Shown here: positions 1 to 27,767 of the stretch, piece by piece
How positions within the stretch are numbered: position 1 is the first letter of the stretch
Layout: each line of letters starts with the position of its first letter
Source of the DNA: a virus
Length of the DNA stretch: 27,767 nt
Reading direction: 5' to 3' (one strand)
Virus record (IMG/VR): IMGVR_UViG_3300047472_000151
Location: 1 to 27,767 of that record
The notes under the pieces: model-generated
Database searches by the model: none
What the model was told of the DNA's origin: nothing
What the model saw: only the letters and a program-made list of their open reading frames with translations
Made by a program: the position numbers and the translations under genes

Positions 1-261
1 CAAAACGAATTCACGGTCATACTCACGAACGTAGCGCTCGCCGACACCACTGGGTTTGAGATTGCAGCAAGTGTCCGGGCAGCATACCCGAATGCACGCC
101 CATTACTAGTCGGCGTTGTGAGTCACTGGGACGGCAACGTTCACGATCAAGCATTGGCTACGGCATTTGATTTTCTCATGTGTAAACCCTTCAAGTTTCT
201 GGATTTGCTTTCTCGCATAGAGGCGGGATTACATTCCCTGGCCATTGGCGGTAGCAAGTGA
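1..261 (+). CDS. Response-regulator receiver domain, 5'-truncated by window edge
   Basis: An open frame runs from base 1 to a TGA at 259-261 and gives 86 residues with no start inside the window. The pattern is that of the second half of a CheY-like receiver: a hydrophobic strand ending ILTNV, then TTGFEIAASVRAAYP, a strand LLVGVVSH, and the conserved Lys-Pro in the CKPF motif, followed by a final helix. The protein ends about 25 residues after the Lys, so the receiver is either stand-alone or C-terminal. The position that normally holds the phospho-accepting Asp (ILTDV in typical receivers) is Asn here, so phosphorylation in the usual way is doubtful. It lies on the strand opposite to the prophage and may be host flank or phage cargo. 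The receiver fold call is fairly secure; its role is unknown. Confidence 0.75.
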   Translation, partial: QNEFTVILTNVALADTTGFEIAASVRAAYPNARPLLVGVVSHWDGNVHDQALATAFDFLMCKPFKFLDLLSRIEAGLHSLAIGGSK

Positions 262-907: not shown

Positions 908-1270
908 ATGAAAAGACTACTGACGTTGCTGCTTGTGCTTTTGTCCAGTGCGTGCTCAGATCACTCGCCAGCAGCAATTTCGGGTGAATGGGACTGCGGG
1001 AGTCACCGGATCTTCCTGTCAGAACACGGAGGCTATACCATCGTCAGCGGTGGTAGCACGTACAAGGGTGCGTTCTCCATCGAGCCTTGGAAGGAAGGTA
1101 CATTTGGCCAGCTGAAACTGGATAAACCGGTCTATCCGCTGAGTGAACATCGCCTGATCAAGGCGGCGCCTAATATTGCTGCTGACCTCTATACATCGAT
1201 GGGAGGCCTCATTCTGTGGAGCACTTCGGGGGCACCATTGCAATGCTTCCATCCCAAGAAGCAGACTTAA
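908..1270 (+). CDS. Putative small lipoprotein (120 aa)
   Basis: The N-terminus is MKRLLTLLLVLLSSACS: two positive charges, a hydrophobic core and a lipobox-like SSAC with Cys16. This suggests export, lipid attachment and an envelope location; the lipobox is slightly atypical because Ser stands at -3. The mature part of about 105 residues has two further Cys (30 and 113) that could form a disulphide, and a strand-rich pattern beginning SGEWDCGSHRIFLSEHGGY. No family was recognised. Its TAA (1268-1270) overlaps the TAA of the convergent endolysin gene within one TTAA. A lipoprotein at the end of a prophage is the usual position of a lysogenic-conversion or superinfection-exclusion gene, but host origin is equally possible. 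The Shine-Dalgarno is weak. Confidence 0.65.
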   Translation: MKRLLTLLLVLLSSACSDHSPAAISGEWDCGSHRIFLSEHGGYTIVSGGSTYKGAFSIEPWKEGTFGQLKLDKPVYPLSEHRLIKAAPNIAADLYTSMGGLILWSTSGAPLQCFHPKKQT

Positions 1271-1827
1271 GCCGACTGTGCAGAAGTCTGCACTCCATGA
1301 TCAAGATACATGATACGTTCAGCGCACCGTCTCGCCGTAAGCCCAGGCAAGACCACGCCTCCAGCCTTATTCCACAGCAAAAACCTGTCGCCTGCCGTCG
1401 CATACTCCCGCCGCGATGTACTGCGGCATATCGAACTGAGCCGGAATGCTTTGACGCCGATGTTATAGGCCAAAGACGTACAGGCCGCTTGACGCGTCGA
1501 CGGTTCACGCAGCAATTGCGGGCATGCGCCCAATACGCCTACCAGCACGGCTGCAGCACGACTTGCCAGTCCGGCTTCGGCCTGGTCGACTGTCCACCAC
1601 ATATCCTCGTGTACGCCTTCTGTTTCCCCGTAGCCGATCGTCCAGGGCTCACCGTCGAGATCCCGGAGCGCAGCCGGGATCTCCGCCCCGCCCTGCATGT
1701 AAGGGGCTAAGATGCGCGCCTTTCGCATCGCCACAGCCAGCGGAGATGCGGGATCTGGATAAGCCCGCAGCGACAGGCCCTCACAGGGCCTGATCAATCC
1801 GCAGGCAAGCTGCAGCGCTGTACTCAC
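1267..1827 (-). CDS. Endolysin, GH24 phage lysozyme
   Basis: This is a muramidase that cleaves peptidoglycan between MurNAc and GlcNAc at the end of infection. The 186-residue protein has the GH24 pattern: Glu16 in the CEGLSLRAYPDP segment, Asp25 eight residues later, then WTIGYG with Thr63, and a late VLPGLTARRCAE segment typical of the C-terminal helices. About 37 residues separate Asp25 and Thr63, against about five in T4 lysozyme, so the protein belongs to a long-loop variant. There is no signal peptide or SAR anchor, so it should depend on the holin. The start is GTG at 1827 and overlaps the holin stop in GTGA. No spanin gene follows it in the window. Confidence 0.88.
   Translation of the reverse strand: MSTALQLACGLIRPCEGLSLRAYPDPASPLAVAMRKARILAPYMQGGAEIPAALRDLDGEPWTIGYGETEGVHEDMWWTVDQAEAGLASRAAAVLVGVLGACPQLLREPSTRQAACTSLAYNIGVKAFRLSSICRSTSRREYATAGDRFLLWNKAGGVVLPGLTARRCAERIMYLDHGVQTSAQSA
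1278..1293. repeat. Palindromic motif, copy C: GTGCAGAAGTCTGCAC
   Basis: The motif is a 16-base palindrome except at its central dinucleotide. It differs by one base from the copy at 20438-20453 and by two from the copy at 18525-18540. It lies in the last codons of the endolysin gene, at the junction with the plus-strand accessory segment. No T-run follows on either strand, so a simple terminator is unlikely. Confidence 0.6.
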
Positions 1828-6718: not shown

Positions 6719-9700
6719 TATTCAGCCCTCACCTTCGGCTGTCCCACCACTTCCCACGTATCCTGCAAATCAGCCGTCTGCCGCGTGCTCTTGGCGATCG
6801 CATACAGGTGGCTCTCCGTCATCTTGCGCAACTCCACGGTCTCCTTTCTCAATTCCTGCAGCTCTTGCACCAGGTCTTCATTGCTACCGCCACGGAGCAT
6901 CGATGCAGTCTGCTGCGCATTGAAGATCCGCGAAGGTCCGGTCACTTCCAGTTCAGGCCCAAACTCACCAACCAGACGCGCGCCGCCTACGTGGTCTCCA
7001 CCGGTGGCAAAGGCCGGAACCTTGTTCTTGTACTCGTCGCTGTTCTGCAGCCAGCCGCGCACCTGGTCAATGCTTGCGCCGCTGGAGATGGCGTTCATGT
7101 AGAACTGCAGGCCATCCGCATCGGCACCGCGGCCCAGAATCGAGCCGTACAGGTTCTGGATCTTGGCCTCGTTGGAGTTCTTGATGCCGTTCACGATCGA
7201 GGAGATCGGCACGCCGTTGGCAGCCTGCTGCTGCCACCAGGCCAGGCCATCTGCTTCGGGATTTCTCCCGAGGTAGGTTTGATAAGCTTGCGTGATCGGG
7301 GCGGTCGAGCCAGCGATAGGATTTGCCTGCGCCGCCTGGAGGGCGCTGCCGAAAGCTGCCAACGCTTGTGTCAGGGACAGCAACGCCGCGTTATTTCCCT
7401 TGAGCAGATCAACCTGCTCCTGGGCGGCGGCAAGTTGCTCGTCCAGCTTCTTCATTTCGCTTTCGAACTGCAGCTGCTCCTGGTCCTTCTGCTTCTCCAG
7501 CACGTCGAGGGTGCGTTCTTCAACCGAAATGCCCTGGTCGGTCAGGTTGGCCAGCTCGCCGATATCGTTGGCGGTTCGAGCGCGATCGCGCAGATAGTCG
7601 TTGTAAGTGGCGAACTGCGATGCGGCATCACGCGTGACGACACCCAGAGCACCCTTCAGGCTGTCGGCCGTGGGCAACGGTCCACCGACGCGAGCGATGG
7701 CCAGGGCTGCCTGGATCTTCGCCTGGGCCGCGCTGCGCGATTCCAGGCTATCTGCCGTCACTTCCACTTGCCCCAGCGCCGCATGCAGGGAGTCGGACAA
7801 TCCGCGCAGCTTGGCGATCGTGGCGTTTTCCGCGTCGATGCGCTGCTGGATGCCTTTCATGCGCACGTCGTGTTCGGCCGAGATGGCAGAACGCTCGCGG
7901 TTGATCACGTTCTGCAGCGTCGCAAACGCACCGTCAGCTGCGTTGAACAGCGAGTCGGCCACGCTCTTGGCAGCAGCGAACTTCTCTGCCGCCTGCGCCA
8001 CACTATCGCCCGCGTCCTGAGCATATTCCGCCACAGCCGCGAACGCGGGAGCGAGAGCCAGGAGCGCCGCATACGTCGCAGCCCCTTTTTCCGTGGCCAA
8101 CTGACCGGAGTTCACCAGGCCAAGTACTGCCTGCTTAAAGTCGTCCTTGGTTTTGAGCCCCTGCTGGCCAAGCTCACCGAGCTTTTCGGCAACCATCTTC
8201 TGCACCGGGGCAATCTGCTCTGCCTTGGAAAGGAAGGTATCCGCGAAATACTGGGTCTGGCTGGCCAGGGCATCGGTACCACCTGCCAATGCAATCAGCC
8301 GCTCACGCGCCTGCAGGGATGCCACGCCCACAACTCCGAAGGCCTGCTCGGAGGTGCGGCCCAGCGTGACCAGCATCGCGTCCACGGTCTGGAAGTCGCC
8401 TGCCAGTCGCTGCAGCGTTGCGCTGGCCGTTTCGCCTTCCTTGGAGAAGGTAGCGATCGAGGGAACAATCCGCGCCGCCAGTTCGTCGCCGATGTCGGAA
8501 AACAGTTTGCCGATCAGTTCATCATTCTTCGCGCTGTCTTTGGTCAACTCCAAATTAAGCGACTTGGAATAGCCGTTCACCACGTCCGCCGACACGCCCA
8601 GAGTCTTGGCAAACTCCTGCGTCGTGGTTTTCACCGCTGCGAAGCCATCACCCAACGCCTTCTGCAGCTCCGCCGAGACAGGCGTGATGTCCGTCCCGTG
8701 TTTGTCGCTGCGGAAGATGCCGCCTTTCTGCACCCAGTTCGCATACTGCTGTCCCGAGCTGAATCCATTGCCGTCGAACGTACCAGTGATGCCCTCGCTC
8801 GTGACTTCCTTGGCCTTGTGGCCGAACAGGCGGTTGACTGCTCCACCGAGCAGGCCACCGACAACGGCGCCGAGCGCCGTGCCGATCACGGGCACGATGC
8901 TACCCACAGTGGCGCCAATAGCGGTTCCGGCATTGACTGCCCCATTGCCCGAGCCGCCGAACGCTGCGTAGCCACCTGAAAGCGCGCGACCACCGTATAC
9001 ACCCGCTGCCACGCCGGCAGCCGCACCTGCGACCGATCCAACAGCCGAACCGGTGCTCAGACTGCTACCCACGCCAGTCATGCCGGCCCCGTTATAGGCG
9101 GCTGCGGCATTGGCCGCTTGTGCGCTCGTCATGCCCATGCCGGTACCGAACGCCGAGATCGAGCTCGATCCCACCAAGTTGCCCAAGCCCGACACAATGC
9201 CGCCCAACGACGCACCTACGCTTGCGAATCCGGTCGTAATCCCGTCATAGAGCTTTTTGCCGGCACTCACCCAATCCAAAACCCCGCCACCGGACGATCC
9301 GCCTGCGGCTCCAGCCCCGGATCCCGATGTTCCCAGCGTTGCGCCAACGTTGATGATCCATTGCTTGAGGGTCATCTGGTACAGCCAGTCGAACAGGATG
9401 TTCTTGAGCGAATCCTTCAGGCGCGTAGCAGCGCTCTTGCCGCCATCGGCAATGCTGATGAAGGTCTGGTGCGCGGTCTGCTCCAGCGATTGCCACAGCT
9501 GCTTCTGTGCCTCGATCTGAGGACGGGCGGATTGATTCGCGTACCAGGTGTCGAATTGCGTTTGCAACAGCTTCTGGGCTTCGGTGCCCTCGCCGGCCAG
9601 CTTGATCCGTTCACGCCAGGTATCTGCCTCGACTTCCAGCAGCGCCTTGGAGCGCGCACGGTCGTCGATGATCGATTCGGCTGCAAAGCGTGCATTGGCC

Positions 9701-16650: not shown

Positions 16651-16692
16651 TTTCGGCAGTCTCATTTCTAGGGAAAAAGGAGACTGCCGAAA
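16651..16692. repeat. 13-bp perfect inverted repeat between portal and capsid genes
   Basis: TTTCGGCAGTCTC at 16651-16663 is the exact reverse complement of 16680-16692, with a 16-base loop. It fills the gap between the portal stop and the protease-capsid start. No T-run follows on the minus strand, so it looks like an RNA stem for processing, stability or translation control and not a classic terminator. Confidence 0.8.
16659..16676. repeat. 18-bp direct repeat, copy 1 (GTCTCATTTCTAGGGAAA)
   Basis: The repeat is identical over all 18 bases to 18488-18505, and forms part of one arm and most of the loop of the portal-capsid hairpin. On the coding (minus) strand it reads TTTCCCTAGAAATGAGAC and lies about 45 bases before the protease-capsid start. 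Confidence 0.8.
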
Positions 16693-16699
16693 TGGGGGG

Positions 16700-18220
16700 T
16701 TAGTCGGTGCCCTTTGCTGCGAGCTCAGTGCCGGCAAGGTTGGTGCCCTTCTCGTTGGCGTAGTCGCTGGCGTACACCAGGCCGCGCTCCTTGGCTTTAT
16801 CGCGCCACGCTTTGGTCTGCTCCATCACGTCCCGCGGATTCACGCCACGCTTACGCATCACTTCAACCTCACTGGCGAAACCATCCTGGGTCAGCCAATG
16901 CCAGGCCATCGCTTCCTTGAGCGGATCGATCCAGGGCATCGACTGCGCAACGTACAGCGCGTCGTCTTCCGTGCCGGCCTTCAGGTCAGCCGGCATGCGT
17001 ACAACACCGGACAGGTGAGCGATCCGGACGAAGTTCTGCCACACCGGCTGCACGCACTGGCCTGTGAATTCGTCGGCCAGTACGGCGTAGTGAATCCATT
17101 GCTCGACCATCTCTTGGCGCTGCGCCGAATAAGTGCCGTTGTAGTCGCGCGAGATGCTGGAGTAGCCAGCGCCAACGCCGGCCGAGACAGCGCGCAGCTG
17201 GCCTTGCCGGAACGTGATGAGATTAGGGTTCGGGCGGTTGGAGTCGATCATGCCGATCTCTTCCCCCGGCATCAGGTTGTCGATGATCATCCCGGGCGCC
17301 AGGCCCAGCTCGCGCGCCCCACCCGCCTGACCCTGCGGCGCAGTGTAGTCTTCCGCTGCGCCCTTCTTCACGTAGGCAGTCAGCGCTGCTGCAACCTTTG
17401 CCGCAATACGTTCGCTTTCCTCGTAATCCTTGATGTCCTCCAGGCGCGTGATGACGCTGGCAAATTCCGACACGCCGCGCAGCTGGCCGATCCGGTCAAT
17501 GGCGGCCATGTGCAGCATACGGGCTGCCTCAATGCGCTTGGTTTCGTAACCGCCTGTACGCCACTTGTCCTCGCCTGGGAATTCCTTGTATACCCAGTAT
17601 CCCGTGGTCTGGCCCCAGGCATTGCGTTCAAAGCCCTGGCGGATGCGACGCCCCTCATCGTGGAACTCCATGGGGATCATGTCTGGCTCCATCAGCTCGA
17701 GGGAGTAAGGCACATCGGAGCCATGGACCAGCAACGGCACTTGGCCGATTAGCTCCTGCACGAAGCTCTCGCCATCGCGAACCATGGTCTTGAACAGCAG
17801 ACGCTGCGACTTACTGAAACTGTGCTTCCGCGTGACTTCCGGAGTCTGGCACCAGGTGCGCCATGCCGCACGCAATTCGGCCGCGTACTCTTCATGGATA
17901 GAACCGTCGCGCCGACGCGGCTGCGGCTCGACGCCGATGCCGTTGGGGCCGATCACGTTGTTCACCAGCGTGCGAAGTGCGCCGCGAGCAATATCGTGGT
18001 TGCGCTCCAGGTTACGGGCCAACGCACGCAGGGTGACAGCGCCTTGCTGCACCATCTGGTTGGGCGAGCGAGCATCGCGGCGCAGCTTGCGCATACGAGA
18101 CGGCTTGGCCGCATCGTATTGGCTCAGCACCTGGCGCGCGGCGAGACGACGCAAACCGGAAGCCGGAGAAATGTAGGAAACGATGCGGTCCAGGGAGTTG
18201 AGTTCGATTTTCACGCTCAT
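16700..18220 (-). CDS. Portal protein, lambda gpB family
   Basis: The 506-residue protein forms the dodecameric DNA gate at the capsid vertex. Recognisable lambda-family stretches are VTLRALARNLERNHDIARGA, LVNNVIGPNGIGVEPQPR, the LLFKTMVRDGESFVQELI strand, SRDYNGTYSAQRQEMVE and the late WLTQDGFASEVEVMRKRGVNP helix. The end is the flexible tail rich in Ala/Gly/Lys. Length and order match lambda portals. The ATG at 18220 overlaps the stop of the gpW-like gene in ATGA. It is followed by a hairpin-bearing gap before the capsid gene. Confidence 0.94.
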   Translation of the reverse strand: MSVKIELNSLDRIVSYISPASGLRRLAARQVLSQYDAAKPSRMRKLRRDARSPNQMVQQGAVTLRALARNLERNHDIARGALRTLVNNVIGPNGIGVEPQPRRRDGSIHEEYAAELRAAWRTWCQTPEVTRKHSFSKSQRLLFKTMVRDGESFVQELIGQVPLLVHGSDVPYSLELMEPDMIPMEFHDEGRRIRQGFERNAWGQTTGYWVYKEFPGEDKWRTGGYETKRIEAARMLHMAAIDRIGQLRGVSEFASVITRLEDIKDYEESERIAAKVAAALTAYVKKGAAEDYTAPQGQAGGARELGLAPGMIIDNLMPGEEIGMIDSNRPNPNLITFRQGQLRAVSAGVGAGYSSISRDYNGTYSAQRQEMVEQWIHYAVLADEFTGQCVQPVWQNFVRIAHLSGVVRMPADLKAGTEDDALYVAQSMPWIDPLKEAMAWHWLTQDGFASEVEVMRKRGVNPRDVMEQTKAWRDKAKERGLVYASDYANEKGTNLAGTELAAKGTD

Positions 18221-18444
18221 TCCCGGAAGCTGGCGACGGAAAACGTCAGGCCGCCAATGCGCGGTGCGCCCGCCGCTGCCGCCTGTTCACTGGAAACCTT
18301 GCGTTCCCATTCCTGACGGCCAGCGCGCACGGCAGCCAAGTCTTCCATGCGCAGAATACGATCGCCAAGCCGAACCTCTTTCCCTTCGAGAATGGCCGCT
18401 TCTGCGGTCATGTATTTGGCTAGCATTTCTTGGTTTGTAGGCAT
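18217..18444 (-). CDS. Head-tail joining protein, gpW-like (75 aa)
   Basis: The start is taken at the ATG at 18444 because AAAGGAG stands five bases upstream; a GTG two codons earlier sits on top of that site. The protein, beginning MPTNQEMLAKYMTAEAAILE, has two short helices around a hairpin (GKEVRLGDRILRMEDLAAVR), then a helix REWERKVSSEQ-like and a tail. This is the gpW layout of a small joining protein encoded next to the portal. It is the first head gene after the histidine-kinase insertion. Confidence 0.8.
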   Translation of the reverse strand: MPTNQEMLAKYMTAEAAILEGKEVRLGDRILRMEDLAAVRAGRQEWERKVSSEQAAAAGAPRIGGLTFSVASFRE

Positions 18445-18487
18445 GAGCACTCCTTTCTGCGGAAGCGCCCACGGTAGCTACTACAAG

Positions 18488-18505
18488 GTCTCATTTCTAG
18501 GGAAA
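18488..18505. repeat. 18-bp direct repeat, copy 2 (GTCTCATTTCTAGGGAAA)
   Basis: This is identical to 16659-16676. Here the flanking stem is short (GTCT with AGAC at about 18510). It lies about 45 bases before the gpW-like start, a distance similar to that of copy 1 before the capsid gene. Confidence 0.8.
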
Positions 18506-18523
18506 GATCAGACTAAGGGCCGC

Positions 18524-18541
18524 AGTGCAAACGTCTGCACT
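18524..18541. repeat. Palindromic motif, copy B: AGTGCAAACGTCTGCACT
   Basis: This 18-base palindrome has one mismatched pair. Its core GTGCAAACGTCTGCAC differs by one base from the copy at 20438-20453. It marks the gpW-side border of the segment that carries the histidine kinase. Confidence 0.65.
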
Positions 18542-18644
18542 ATCGGGTCAACACATCCGTGACCGGAATTCGATAAAGCGGATCGGGAGGAGCAAGGTCG
18601 CGAGGCCAGCTCCTAAAATCGCTGCCATTGCAGCCCGTGGGACC

Positions 18645-18656
18645 GTGAGCGCTCAC
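18645..18656. promoter_or_regulatory. Perfect 12-bp palindrome GTGAGCGCTCAC
   Basis: The palindrome equals the core of the symmetric lac operator, a shape typical of LacI-family sites. It lies upstream of the tiny plus-strand gene at 18786. No LacI-type regulator gene is visible in the window, so operator function is only a possibility. Confidence 0.3.
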
Positions 18657-18785
18657 CGTTCATGAAAGTTGTGGTCAAATATCAATATCGATAAATATCC
18701 TAAATCCCACTGGTAAAGAAGGCATGGTAAGGTGAGTAAATTACCTCGCTTGGCCAATCGCAACAGAGCGACGATGGAGACAATC

Positions 18786-18905
18786 ATGCTATCGAATGTT
18801 CAGGAACGCCGCGTCAGCGTTCAACTGGCTGGCATTATTGATGAAGCGCTTGATCTGGCTGAGGCATGTGGGTGGCGCTACGCCATCAGCCTACCTCATC
18901 AGTGA
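18786..18905 (+). CDS. Tiny protein (39 aa), possible truncated relative of the 62-aa protein
   Basis: An ATG at 18786 with GGAG six bases upstream opens a 39-codon frame ending TGA at 18903-18905. The product begins MLSNVQERRVSVQLAGIIDE and continues ALDLAEACGWRYAISLPHQ. Its IID segment and the following hydrophobic helix with a Gly at similar spacing resemble the 62-residue protein at 390-578, but the second half (ALRYL...GVPV) is missing, as if truncated. It is the only plus-strand gene inside the phage late region and is divergent from the gpW-like gene. The leader GATGGAGACAA is shared exactly with the histidine-kinase gene. Function is unknown. Confidence 0.5.
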   Translation: MLSNVQERRVSVQLAGIIDEALDLAEACGWRYAISLPHQ

Positions 18906-19162
18906 GAAGGTACCTCCCCAATTGTTCAGCGGCTGCTTTGGGGGGGCGAACGCACAAGGCAATCTTCCAACATGCTTGATAGACGCTTCCCTTCCTGGAA
19001 GGGGAGCGATGCCGAAGAAATGAGAAGTTTGTTCGATTGGTTGCGCCAGCGGAGGGCCGTCGAAACTTGCGCCCGCCGGGATGCGTGGTGCGCTTCGCGT
19101 CCGAGCACGCACCACGCAGAGAACGATTGAACATTCGGAAGAAAGAGCGACGGCTCAGCAAC
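18906..19162. other. Intergenic region downstream of the histidine kinase
   Basis: No gene with a credible start was seen on either strand in these 257 bases. The stretch contains CCCCAA/TTGGGG inverted arms near 18916-18950, a short CCCTT/AAGGG hairpin near 18990-19005 and the strong stem-loop described for 19082-19118. Its composition differs from that of the phage structural genes. Confidence 0.45.
19082..19118. repeat. 11-bp perfect stem-loop downstream of the histidine kinase
   Basis: TGCGTGGTGCG at 19082-19092 pairs perfectly with CGCACCACGCA at 19108-19118 around a 15-base loop. It lies 45 bases beyond the kinase stop. There is no T-run on either side, so it is a strong hairpin but not a textbook intrinsic terminator; it may end or protect the kinase transcript. 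Confidence 0.65.
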
Positions 19163-20299
19163 TCACGCTGTTTGGGGCGGGCGCGGCATTGTCACTTCGA
19201 ACGTCGTGCCATCGACTGCATTCGACTTGACTCTGATCTGTCCGCCATGCGCATGCACGACCTGACAAGAAATGTAAAGACCTAGGCCAAGGCTAGTGCG
19301 CTCAGTGTTACCACTGGTATCGACACGTACCATGGGATCAAAAATGCGCGATATCTTGTCAGGGGGAATGATTGGGCCTCGATTGTTGATCGCAATAAAA
19401 ATTTCGTCGTCACTACTTGTCATGAAAACGCGAACCGGGGACGCCTCGTCGCCGTACTGAAGAGCGTTCCCAATCAGGTTCGACAGCATTTGGGCGATGC
19501 GATTGGCATCAAAAGTGGCATCCACCTGCGGCGGAGCGTGCAGTACTACGAACTTCTCCGGGTGAAAAGTGCGCAATTCGTTGACCACCTGCTGGCATAC
19601 GACGACAAGATCGCCCGGAGTAATTTGAACGGGGATACCGGATCCAAGGTGGGTGCGCGTAAAGTCGAGCAGGTCGTTAATCAGTTGGCTCATCCGTTTG
19701 GCACTGTGAAGCATCCGGGTAGCCATGAGAACGTACCTCGGCGGTATATCAACAGCCTGCGTCATGCAACTCGCCCCGCCGACCAGCGTACCCAGAGGAT
19801 TACGCAGGTCATGGCCGAGGATCGCCAGGAACATGTTTTGCGATTGTGTAACTATATCTTGGTAACGGGCGATCGACTCAGCCAACGCCTGATCCACAGT
19901 CTCGTTAAATCTCGTCATGTCGGCCATATCCGTCGCCAGGGCTGTCTTTGAATCACGGTCCCACAACGTCAGAACGCTGCAACGTAGTGCTCGGTATTCG
20001 GAGATCAGTTGCACGGCTGAGTATCCGGACCTTAGCCGCACTTCGGCGTGAGACTCTGCAGCCGAGTCCCCATGGTCGCGCGGCCCTAATCCCTTGGATT
20101 TGTCTTCGCACGCCTGGTTCGATTGGGGGGTATCCAGATCTGCGGCGAACGTGAGCAACATTTCGTGAACGTGGTCACGCAACTCCGCATCGCGCATCGT
20201 CGGAGCAGGAGGCTCAATTGTGCGCGCAAAATCTTCCCATGCCTGCAGGATCGGCTCCATGTTGGCGCGTATGAAACCGGAGAGTCGGGACTGAGTCAT
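19163..20299 (-). CDS. Soluble sensor histidine kinase with RsbRD_N-like domain
   Basis: The 378-residue protein has no membrane segment. Residues 1-140 resemble the RsbRD_N sensory domain, with RSGYSAVQLISEYRALR being the characteristic stretch. HisKA follows, with the H-box LGHDLRNPLG and His163 as the expected phosphorylation site. The HATPase domain has the N-box LSNLIGNALQYG (Asn274/Asn278), INNRGPIIPP in the G1 position and a SLGLGLYIS G2 box at 336-344. It should autophosphorylate and pass phosphate to a receiver encoded elsewhere; no partner is adjacent. It starts at ATG 20299 with GGAG seven bases upstream. It interrupts the packaging/head gene order between the Mor-like and gpW-like genes and is flanked by palindromic repeats, which suggests acquired cargo. 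Confidence 0.9.
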   Translation of the reverse strand: MTQSRLSGFIRANMEPILQAWEDFARTIEPPAPTMRDAELRDHVHEMLLTFAADLDTPQSNQACEDKSKGLGPRDHGDSAAESHAEVRLRSGYSAVQLISEYRALRCSVLTLWDRDSKTALATDMADMTRFNETVDQALAESIARYQDIVTQSQNMFLAILGHDLRNPLGTLVGGASCMTQAVDIPPRYVLMATRMLHSAKRMSQLINDLLDFTRTHLGSGIPVQITPGDLVVVCQQVVNELRTFHPEKFVVLHAPPQVDATFDANRIAQMLSNLIGNALQYGDEASPVRVFMTSSDDEIFIAINNRGPIIPPDKISRIFDPMVRVDTSGNTERTSLGLGLYISCQVVHAHGGQIRVKSNAVDGTTFEVTMPRPPQTA

Positions 20300-20431
20300 C
20301 GGTTGTCTCCATCATGCCGGGTTACCGACACTACTGTGTAGGTTAGCATAGTGAGCAACGCTTGAGCACACGTTGCGGTACCAGGACGTACTGGCAAACC
20401 CAGCCTAGCCCACGGTACAAGTACAACTAAG

Positions 20432-20459
20432 TTGCGAGTGCAGACGTCTGCACTCGCAA
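20432..20459. repeat. 28-bp perfect palindrome, copy A of the border motif
   Basis: A perfect palindrome with core GTGCAGACGTCTGCAC (20438-20453) extends six more bases on each side. It begins eight bases beyond the Mor-like stop and lies between that gene and the kinase. As RNA it would form a 12-bp stem, but no T-run follows on the minus strand. It marks the Mor-side border of the kinase segment. Confidence 0.8.
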
Positions 20460-20466
20460 TCAAGAA

Positions 20467-20757
20467 TCAAGCGCCCTTCAATATTTTGTAAAACTGCGCG
20501 CGCCCAAGGCCCCATTTTTCACGTAATGCCCTGCCGTTGGCGCCGTTATACTCGCCACGGATCGCGAGGGCACGCTCATCAGGATCACGGCCTGACTTCT
20601 TCACGTAGACTTCCTGTCCCCCCCACTCAATACGCGCTCTTCGTTCAATTGCGCGCTCCAGTTCGCCAGGGAATACCGTGGTGCCTAGCGCTGCGCGGAC
20701 CTCCTTCAACAGCATGCCAACGATATCCGGTTGATGGTAGCGCTTCAAATTCTTCAT
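20467..20757 (-). CDS. Mor/C-family transcription activator-like protein (96 aa)
   Basis: The protein starts MKNLKRYHQPDIVGMLLKEV. The Mor-type pattern is visible: a helical N-terminus, GGQEVYVKKSGRDPDERALA (the GGQ.(I/V)Y strand), then EYNGANGRALREKWGLGRAQFYKIL, a helix-turn-helix like that of Mu Mor and C. At 96 residues it is shorter than Mu Mor, lacking some N-terminal dimerisation sequence. Mu Mor and C activate middle and late promoters. The ATG shares one base with the large-terminase stop (TAATG), so it is co-expressed with packaging genes. It may regulate the operon it belongs to. Confidence 0.8.
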   Translation of the reverse strand: MKNLKRYHQPDIVGMLLKEVRAALGTTVFPGELERAIERRARIEWGGQEVYVKKSGRDPDERALAIRGEYNGANGRALREKWGLGRAQFYKILKGA

Positions 20758-24485: not shown

Positions 24486-27221
24486 TCAACCCAGCGCACC
24501 ATCAGCGCGCACGTCCGCCAACTTCCTGAACTTCTCGATCTGTGCCTCCAGATCGTCCTTGCCCGACGAATTGATCTCGTACACCATCCGGTCCTTCGGC
24601 TGCTTTTTGCCTACCGCTACTTTCCGCTTGACCTTGTGCTCCCTGCTGCCGATGAATCCATTGAACTTGCACATGGACAGCGGCTTTTCGCCGCTCTTGT
24701 CGCACCACCGCTTATAGATGTTGTAGAGGTCTTCCGTCAGGCAGGAGCAGTACGGCGCATCCAGGTAGCCATCCTTCCAGGCGCGATGGAAGGACATCCA
24801 GCCGCTCAGGCCGAACTCGATCACGCGCTCTTTGGCCAGGGTCATCGGCGGCTTGGTGTGCTCATTGAAGCCATCGAGCGGGAAGTTGAGCAGGAAGTGG
24901 TAGAACGCCTCAATGCCGCCAGCATCGATCGCATCCTTCACCGCCTGGTAGAACGCTTCCGACTGCTTGGCCCGCGCCTCGATCACCATGAACCGCCTGT
25001 CTTCCAGCTCAATCGGGATCGGCTGCGGCTCATTGGACAGAAATGCGCTGTTCATGTGGTTCTGCTCGTCACGCAGCGGCAAATTCTTCTCGTTGATGCT
25101 CATCGTGCGGCCGGTGATCATGTACTTGAGCGTGCCGTTATGGCTGAACCGGTCGTCACGCGACAGCACCTCTTCGAACAGCACGAACAGCTTGCGCGAG
25201 CGCCAGGCCGTGAACGTGGATTCCAGCTGGTGCTGGCTGGCCACCGTTCCGTATACACCGTAGATCGGTGCAATCACATCCTGGAAGAACAGGCTCTTAC
25301 CGGTGCCCTGCTTCTCGCCGAACATCAGCAGCGCGGTCTGCATCTTGGCGCCGGGATGCTGCAGCGGATATGCCAGCCAGCGCAAGATCCAGGCCACGCA
25401 CTCATCGACCTTATCTTCGGCCCCGCACAGCGACTCAAGGAGCGCGAGGATCGGCAGGACAAGCTGCTCGTTCGCCTTCGGCACCAACGGCCAGCCGAGG
25501 AAGATGTTGACGTGCGTGACCGGGTCGGCCTGCTGCGTGGGATCGAACACCAGGTTCTTTGCCTCGATGGTCTTGCGCATGGCATGCTCTTGCCATTTCG
25601 AAGTGAGTTCGGCCGTATAGTCAGCGCGCACAGCGCCCAGACTCATTACCTGCTGGCCGATGCCGTCCCACACCGTTTCCGTGCCGCGGAGCAGTGTCAG
25701 CTGCTCCAGCATCTCAGCCAGCTTGCCGCCGCCGGCGCCACCCTCGATCGACTTGCCGCCAACCAGGGCGGGCAAGCTCTCACGCATGATGGTGCGGCGC
25801 CCTTCGGACTTCTCCCAGCTAGACGCCAGATCCTTGCCGACCCAGGCCGCGAAGGCAGATTTCTTGAGCCTCTGTTTGCGCAGGCCGTCCCACACATCCG
25901 TTGTGGGATACACCAAGGCGAAATGCGCCAGGAGCACTTCCAGCGTCGGCACGCGTAAGCTCACCGGCTCGGCCGACTCTGTCGCGGGTGCTTCGCCAGC
26001 AGGAGGCGCGGAGGACGCGTTATCGCTGGTCGGGGCTGTCGGCGTTGGCTGCGGGGCGTTCTCATCGAGTGAGGGCGCGGGAGCGCTAAGGACGGCCTGC
26101 AACTGCTGACGAACGACCTCCAGCGACTCTTCCGCGTGCAGATCGTTATAGTCCGTCCACTTGTTCTCTCCGCGGCTGGCGAAGGTCGGCCACACCACGC
26201 GAGCGTGACCAACATCGTGCGCAGCAGCACGGGCGCTTGCAATGCCGGCATTCTCGAACTTCCAGATATGGAAGCGGCGCCCGGAGCGCACGTCAGCCTC
26301 GATGTAGTCCGTGCCCGTGGCATCTTTGCGCCAGGTCGCACGCACCGTGACTGCATCGCCTTTGGCATTTTTCAGCACGTGGTCCGCGCCATCGATGGGC
26401 GGCGCCGCGACCTCGAACTCTTCAAGCAAGTCCCGCTCGTAGCGCTGCACCAGCTGCCAGTCATCATCTGCGAAGAAGACCAGCTCCGCGTCAGGGAAGT
26501 CCGCGCGCAGCTGGCGCGCCACAACAAGAATATTCCCCGCGCTGAATGTCAGCATGACCGGAAGCGCATCGTTGATTGCCATCCGCACCGAGCGCCCACT
26601 GGCGTAGCCTTCGGCCAGGCCAATCTGGCGCGTGTCAGCGCTAACCGTGCCGAGCAGGCAGCTCGCGCCGATCATGTCCGCCCCAGCATTGAAGCGCTTT
26701 TCTCCGGCCGCGTCGATCTTTTGTACACACACCAGGTCAGCACCGCTGCGGGTATACCGGCGCGCCGGAACCAGAAGCGTGCCGTTCTCATCGACGCGCA
26801 CGCCCTCTCCTGTGATTTTCTTGCGCACGAGGTATGGGACATTTGCCGCAGGGTCCACTGCCTTCGCCTGGCGCCATTGGCGGCGCGCACGGCCGGCAGC
26901 CAGCTCTGCGACGTGCTTACGGCGCTGCTCTTCCTCCTGCTTTTTCTGCTCCTGACGGCGTTTTAGTTCCGTCAGCTCTTCCTCGCTGATGCCGGACCAG
27001 TCCACGTCCACCTTGACGGTACCCGGATCGCGGCCTTGAAAGCGGCCAAAGGAGCCCGCTGTGACAATGCGACCATCCTTCAGGACGATCTCGGACAACT
27101 TGTACCAGGACTTCTTACCCGTGCCGAATTTCTTGAACTTGCCGCTCAGGTCCAGTGGCGTTGACGGCAATGCCGGCAGCACCGCAGACATCTGCGCCAA
27201 GACTTCATTGACTGTTGCCAT
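24486..27221 (-). CDS. Phage primase-helicase (Toprim + AAA+/DUF5906)
   Basis: The 911-residue replication protein has an N-terminal region with a charged coiled-coil (residues 80-120), followed by a Toprim-like primase domain with Glu204 in LAEGYASG and the acidic FFADDD at 249-254. A linker with KWTDYNDLHAEES and a Pro/Ala-rich stretch (380-420) leads to a superfamily-3/D5-like helicase. The helicase has Walker A GEKQGTGKS (635-643), Walker B LFVLFEE (678-684) and DRRFMVIEA with a likely arginine finger. It would prime and unwind DNA at the phage origin, probably the repeat array just downstream. TAA and ATG of the upstream gene and this one are adjacent. Confidence 0.92.
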   Translation of the reverse strand: MATVNEVLAQMSAVLPALPSTPLDLSGKFKKFGTGKKSWYKLSEIVLKDGRIVTAGSFGRFQGRDPGTVKVDVDWSGISEEELTELKRRQEQKKQEEEQRRKHVAELAAGRARRQWRQAKAVDPAANVPYLVRKKITGEGVRVDENGTLLVPARRYTRSGADLVCVQKIDAAGEKRFNAGADMIGASCLLGTVSADTRQIGLAEGYASGRSVRMAINDALPVMLTFSAGNILVVARQLRADFPDAELVFFADDDWQLVQRYERDLLEEFEVAAPPIDGADHVLKNAKGDAVTVRATWRKDATGTDYIEADVRSGRRFHIWKFENAGIASARAAAHDVGHARVVWPTFASRGENKWTDYNDLHAEESLEVVRQQLQAVLSAPAPSLDENAPQPTPTAPTSDNASSAPPAGEAPATESAEPVSLRVPTLEVLLAHFALVYPTTDVWDGLRKQRLKKSAFAAWVGKDLASSWEKSEGRRTIMRESLPALVGGKSIEGGAGGGKLAEMLEQLTLLRGTETVWDGIGQQVMSLGAVRADYTAELTSKWQEHAMRKTIEAKNLVFDPTQQADPVTHVNIFLGWPLVPKANEQLVLPILALLESLCGAEDKVDECVAWILRWLAYPLQHPGAKMQTALLMFGEKQGTGKSLFFQDVIAPIYGVYGTVASQHQLESTFTAWRSRKLFVLFEEVLSRDDRFSHNGTLKYMITGRTMSINEKNLPLRDEQNHMNSAFLSNEPQPIPIELEDRRFMVIEARAKQSEAFYQAVKDAIDAGGIEAFYHFLLNFPLDGFNEHTKPPMTLAKERVIEFGLSGWMSFHRAWKDGYLDAPYCSCLTEDLYNIYKRWCDKSGEKPLSMCKFNGFIGSREHKVKRKVAVGKKQPKDRMVYEINSSGKDDLEAQIEKFRKLADVRADGALG

Positions 27222-27647: not shown

Positions 27648-27767
27648 GGACGGCCTCTTCCATGTCCACAACAGCCAAGTGATCCTTGCCGTGTTTCCGG
27701 AGGATGGCTACACGCAATTCGCAGAGCGACTTGTGCATTTGTTGCTCTATGGCGTGCAAGTGCGCAC
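27640..27767 (-). CDS. C-terminal end of an unrecognised gene, cut by window edge
   Basis: The minus strand is open from the right edge to a TAA at 27640-27642, giving at least 41 residues, AHLHAIEQQMHKSLCELRVA then ILRKHGKDHLAVVDMEEAVHA. The sequence is helical with good coding character. It overlaps the next gene's start, as is common in this operon. The remainder lies outside the window, so no function can be given. Confidence 0.65.
   Translation of the reverse strand, partial: AHLHAIEQQMHKSLCELRVAILRKHGKDHLAVVDMEEAVHA

Follow-up and report, generated by a model that had tools for sequence, protein, structure and literature searches.

A 16-bp palindrome that occurs three times in the window, the 27,767-base stretch of viral DNA analysed here, is probably a loading site for an orphan ParB CTPase, a reading to which we assign a probability of about 0.78. 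As judged from sequence, the palindrome is a dyad resembling parS and the KorB operator, and its putative partner would be encoded in the left early operon of the phage, outside the window. The motif most likely marks a genome-wide phage system and has nothing special to do with the histidine kinase cargo that two of its copies bracket. Binding sites of a regulator had been among the roles suggested in the first-pass annotation; that class is correct, although the likeliest regulator is a ParB-family clamp that acts on the whole phage genome and not one that controls cargo genes.

Three sites in the window

The virus record that makes up the window stands alone, with no host genome, and is a fragment. 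Our scan returned the three 16-mers with exactly the sequences and coordinates first reported (Table 1), and nothing else in the window lies within three mismatches, which agrees with the earlier statement that no further full copy is present. Chance had been called an unlikely source of the copies, and the counts bear this out: 0.23 copies were expected, and none of 100 shuffles reached three. By ORF coordinates, the borders between core phage and accessory DNA at which the copies lie are also as described. The first site overlaps the final codons of the lysozyme ORF and begins 8 bp past the stop of a plus-strand ORF (908-1270); it lies where the late/lysis operon ends and meets converging accessory genes on the plus strand. 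The second lies 75 bp upstream of a small ORF (18217-18450, minus strand) that precedes the portal gene in a small ORF-portal operon, and the third is found 14 bp past the stop of Mor, with the kinase start 139 bp downstream of it. Among the original gene calls, kinase, lysozyme, Mor and portal are backed by Pfam, but the 77-aa ORF named gpW has no Pfam hit.

Table 1. Coordinates of the palindromic sites and of the genes discussed in the text.
Feature	Positions	Strand	Match to palindrome	Placement or relevance	Basis
parS-like 16-bp site GTGCAGAAGTCTGCAC	1278-1293		1 mismatch	3' end of lysozyme gene	sequence scan
parS-like 16-bp site GTGCAAACGTCTGCAC	18525-18540		1 mismatch	left border of kinase segment	
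parS-like 16-bp site GTGCAGACGTCTGCAC	20438-20453		perfect palindrome	right border of kinase segment	
Lysozyme	1267-1827	-		3' end carries site 1278-1293	Pfam
Histidine kinase cargo (RsbRD_N-like, HisKA, HATPase_c)	19163-20299	-		bracketed by two sites	Pfam
Mor-family gene	20467-20757	-		directly upstream of site 20438	Pfam
DUF5906 primase	24486-27221	-		ties window to parB-carrying phages	

A second repeat is also present in the window, at 16659-16685 and 18488-18514 (minus strand AGTCTCCTTTTTCCCTAGAAATGAGAC; copies 89% identical), one copy immediately ahead of the capsid/protease gene and the other immediately ahead of the short ORF that precedes the portal gene. A similar hairpin-like element is found at the Mor-gpW junction of G006, one of the two closest structural relatives of the window.

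Co-occurrence of the motif with an orphan parB gene

A scan of viral contigs with the pattern GTGCANANGTCTGCAC returned 120 stretches, of which the perfect palindrome makes up a large share. Many temperate-phage records, mostly of Burkholderiales, hold two to seven dispersed copies each, for example six in the whole records of G001, G002 and G049 and seven in those of G017 and G043; the reversed-pattern control gave none. Phage VarioGold has six sites, and the Acidovorax phage Aval (L288) carries, at 7662 and 20625, a symmetric variant, GTGCACACGTGTGCAC, whose centre is the CACGTG of parS. Counterparts of the window site at 1278 are present at G001:3943 (exact) and G073:3604, beside lysozymes that are 96% and 76% identical respectively. 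In nine prophage-bearing bacterial genomes of 3-7 Mb, from Massilia, Janthinobacterium, Undibacterium, Noviherbaspirillum, Nitrosospira, Variovorax and Curvibacter, 39 of the 44 copies lie inside a parB prophage region, so the random scatter through host genomes for which the first-pass annotation had advised looking is not seen. The Noviherbaspirillum genome holds an identical site set twice, on two contigs. A full-text literature search retrieved no paper containing the 16-mer or its halves.

None of eleven terminase relatives of the window has a copy of the motif; thus the motif does not track structural genes, and terminase relatives were dropped as motif carriers. The gene common to motif-bearing records encodes a ParB-family protein of 600-900 aa. 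ParB_N and HTH_ParB score above the Pfam cut-offs in all six proteins tested, and the protein corresponds to 'ParB-like partition protein' in PHROGs and exceeds the cut-off of TIGR00180; against the ParB of the PRTRC system (TIGR03734) it scores 106-147 bits, where the NCBIfam cut-off is 278.6. Mu-like phages with a transposase had been another candidate for the carriers, and were dropped when the gene of 600-800 aa next to the sites turned out to encode ParB.

Circularity was avoided by picking loci with the ParB alignment alone (n = 80). We found sites with at most one mismatch outside parB in 64 of these loci (98 copies; 153 in all), whereas shuffled palindromes of the same composition averaged 0.05 over the same 80 loci. 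A slightly looser site definition gives at least one site in every locus, and a de novo palindrome search in the motif-less ParB loci yielded GC-rich noise only. Among the primase and terminase relatives of the window, sites are present in all seven records with parB (three to seven each) and in none of the 12 without it (P of about 2e-5 by Fisher's exact test with records taken as independent); this value is only a guide, because the records are related, and counts over records that share ancestry are not independent events.

When records were selected by motif instead, parB was found in 38 of 50, and in 16 of the 18 with at least four copies, the two exceptions being shorter records. The other 12 motif-selected records, which count against a ParB partner, match no ParB profile, and a search for divergent ParB (PF02195) was also empty in all 12; five of them have one site each and four others are short or truncated. 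G027, G057 and G069 have three sites in 35-41 kb and no ParB_N domain, and are possibly incomplete prophages or users of a different partner protein.

Of the ParB CTPase boxes, II (GERRxRA) is present in 72 and III (ENxxR) in 79 of the 80 phage proteins, and by sequence and predicted fold the solved structures closest to the N-terminal 320 residues are ParB-CTP, Noc and KorB. In the recognition helix, KSRSYVYGRLKLCAL stands in place of the KSRSHVANTMRLLAL of Caulobacter ParB, a difference that would be in keeping with a different half-site. The parB gene of VarioGold lies in a leftward operon between a CI-like repressor and the integrase, which suggests that it is an early gene.

We found no ParA (PF13614) in 27 records and no ParA-binding motif in the 80 phage ParBs, and therefore do not class the system as a ParABS partition system. 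This also bears on the idea that the prophage is plasmid-like, depends on a ParA of the host or one that escaped recognition, and has in these sites a true partition centromere. Plasmid prophages with partition do exist, P1 and N15 among them, and ParB and parS-like sites are both present here, but VarioGold and G001 encode tyrosine integrases and host chromosomal contigs contain both the sites and parB; together with the ParA results, these observations make a centromere very unlikely.

In the relatives, the putative partner ParB (ParB_N and HTH_ParB) is encoded on the same replicon as the sites, and the 27.8-kb window itself holds no parB. Proteins at the left end of the window are 90-100% identical to those of G001, and its primase is 84% identical to that of G073, which has parB beyond the primase; parB is likewise encoded beyond the primase in 7 of the 11 tested records whose primases are 51-84% identical. 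On the strength of the G001 left-end and G073 primase identities, we infer that parB would be found beyond position 27767. The closest structural relatives, G006 and G072, have no parB, kinase or sites, and in them the short ORF before the portal gene comes immediately after Mor. These comparisons of relatives indicate that the window joins a parB-less structural lineage to the early and lysis modules of parB phages.

Placement and anatomy of the sites

Of the 136 sites in 28 records, 59 fall between genes or at the ends of records, as against about 14% of random positions. Sites recur at the beginning of the parB operon, within parB, ahead of the packaging genes, where the major capsid gene ends (VarioGold 5756, Aval 20625, G001 17832 and 17892) and where the lysis genes end (window 1278, G001 3943, G073 3604, VarioGold 21002); copies are found inside terminase and tape-measure genes as well as inside parB. 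Sites upstream of the parB and packaging operons stand at variable distances, many others are inside genes, and site-to-start-codon distances, which run from about 10 bp to several hundred, do not single out promoter control. As distances vary and many copies are within genes, promoter control alone does not explain the pattern. Spacing between sites is more even than under random placement (CV 0.52 versus 0.71), which may be explicable by shared descent.

Among 119 sites outside parB, half-site positions 1-5, 7 and 8 are 96-99% conserved and position 6 is G in 80% and C in 13%, while the information in the position weight matrix is at background beyond the 16 bp, save for a weak A/T preference on the adjoining base; gathering the sites under a mismatch limit inflates the conservation within the 16 bp, but not the drop outside. 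The Aval variant is changed in matched fashion on both arms, which fits a protein dimer. Burkholderiales parS sites are reported to be 16-bp palindromes whose core, centred on CG, comprises 2C, 2G, 1A and 1T (PMC5450999), and the phage 16-mer, a perfect palindrome with a central CG and the core GACGTC, has the same composition; the chromosomal parS TGTTTCACGTGAAACA has the ACGT centre in common with it.

In many parB genes, a copy of the site coincides with the codons that specify ADVCT in a Cys4 segment. The alanine is encoded by GCA in 65 of the 66 genes of this kind, compared with 17% elsewhere in parB, and the string GCA-GAC-GTC-TGC is present in 49 of 66 against an expected 4.7%. This synonymous codon bias indicates that the DNA site within parB is under selection, with the ADVCT protein sequence constraining it in part.

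The same data bear on whether the sites could be operators or stoperators of a classical repressor or activator (CI-, Mor- or C-type), with ParB a hitch-hiker. Sites at operon and module borders, enriched between genes, would suit such a regulator, and cluster A mycobacteriophages offer a known case of many copies of one regulator site dispersed across a temperate phage genome (PMC9283540). Stoperators are, however, asymmetric 13-mers that are recognised by a repressor acting as a monomer and aligned with the direction of transcription, whereas the sites described here are perfectly symmetric 16-mers tied to ParB and show no such asymmetry. Moreover, site presence tracks parB and not Mor, which G006 and G072 possess without having any site, and one copy lies inside parB under codon-level constraint. 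We therefore regard a classical operator as unlikely.

Transcription terminators or RNA hairpins that insulate modules are, we consider, highly improbable. The palindrome could be folded on paper into a 6-bp stem with an ACGT loop, and some copies do follow stop codons or lie between convergent genes; yet the flanks have no T-tract, the loop is 97-99% conserved, copies occur within genes, and parB-less relatives of the same gene order have no sites. The transcript-insulating hairpins proposed in the first-pass annotation thus lack support, given the missing T-tract and the invariant centre.

That annotation had also raised recombination, in which short palindromes at module borders would serve to swap cargo. 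Two copies do bracket the kinase segment, which also contains a remnant of the gene found beside the G001 integrase. Cargo exchange nevertheless has very little probability: the flanks are not conserved, the matrix being at background outside the 16 bp; copies lie inside essential genes; in a reading of the neighbouring annotations, no recombinase except the integrase was noticed beside sites; and 16 bp is short for homologous recombination. The same junction is, in addition, marked where the cargo is absent. Kinase-free, parB-carrying relatives have a copy at the terminase-portal junction (G071:23488, G075:26682, G046:15650 and G041:17325, the last inside the end of terminase), so these are not cargo-exchange sites, and the proposal lacks support, given these junction copies, the sharp 16-bp edge and the in-gene copies. 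On the related question of whether cargo-free relatives keep a copy, one is present at the terminase-portal junction of the relatives just named, and none at the Mor-gpW junction of the parB-less G006 and G072. The best reading of the two kinase-flanking sites is that they are part of a genome-wide site network, and not transposon or integrase ends.

The best phage match of the kinase is the histidine kinase of the Pseudomonas satellite phage phiAH14b (43.5% over 98%), and this kinase type therefore recurs as phage cargo; we found no relative of the kinase in viral contigs, and no match to the DNA of the kinase segment in phage and plasmid collections. Within that segment, positions 18774-19071 (plus strand) are 71.6% identical to the gene beside the integrase in G001 (1566-1860), with a reading frame that looks broken, suggesting decay of an accessory gene or an error in the sequence. 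A cut-off ORF (1-261, plus strand) at the opposite end of the window resembles a response-regulator receiver domain; the fragment has no Pfam hit and shares 100% identity with the corresponding stretch of G001 (2666-2923). The receiver-like ORF and the kinase, at opposite window ends, are possibly a separated two-component pair.

A putative clamp-loading system and its relatives

If the sites are ParB loading sites, a ParB dimer would bind the dyad with its two HTH domains, close with CTP into a clamp and slide onto the flanking phage DNA; with no ParA, a nucleoprotein of the KorB or Noc type would be the likely result. As to what the clamp would do, silencing or insulating blocks of phage transcription has a little less than an even chance of being its role, organising phage DNA for replication, segregation or packaging is a plausible but less probable one, and some other role is a minority possibility.

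Several known systems resemble the one proposed. The ParB-parS centromeres of Burkholderiales, both Bsr and chromosomal (PMC5450999), have in common with it the 16-bp perfect palindrome, the core composition with its central CG and an HTH ParB partner; the phage half-site GTGCAGAC, however, is without the T-rich 5' end, there is no ParA, and the sites are spread over a 40-kb genome, whereas Burkholderiales parS sites are near oriC or beside parAB. KorB of plasmid RK2, which belongs to a repression system with a KorA partner and which loads at its operator OB and then slides (PMC11790492), is likewise a ParB-family CTPase on a mobile element with dispersed 16-bp operators, some near promoters and some farther away; the predicted partner here differs in being phage-borne, 600-900 aa long and equipped with a Cys4 segment and a long tail. 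Noc, which slides from its NBS sites (PMC8429893), acts without a ParA partner, as an orphan clamp of the ParB family whose 16-bp sites are scattered, but the sites described here are confined to the phage genome.

Orphan proteins of the ParB-CTPase fold are already known on prophages (PMC12704722), and they resemble the present ones in having the fold without a ParA-binding motif; in the accessible part of that survey no DNA site or genome-wide site pattern is assigned to them. The accessible text on VarioGold mentions merely a ParB-like domain (PMC9658991), and the literature searched, which leaves subscription papers largely outside, yielded no account of a set of dispersed sites for prophage orphan ParBs.

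It is conceivable, although doubtful, that a large group of integrating tailed phages shares a ParA-free ParB clamp that loads at four to seven regularly spaced module-border sites and coats the whole genome, giving a partition-independent nucleoid or insulation. Prophage orphan ParBs are common, and their DNA targets are mostly unknown. Here, sequence alone yields a site, its edges, a symmetric natural variant, its genomic places and two named phages, VarioGold and Aval; with the site, edges, variant and phages in hand, the function of the whole ParB branch is directly testable, and comparison of the Aval ParB recognition region with others could reveal the residue that reads position 6. If our reading is true, CTP-clamp loading at dispersed sites would extend to integrating phages, beyond the chromosomes and plasmids of ParB, Noc, KorB and VirB.
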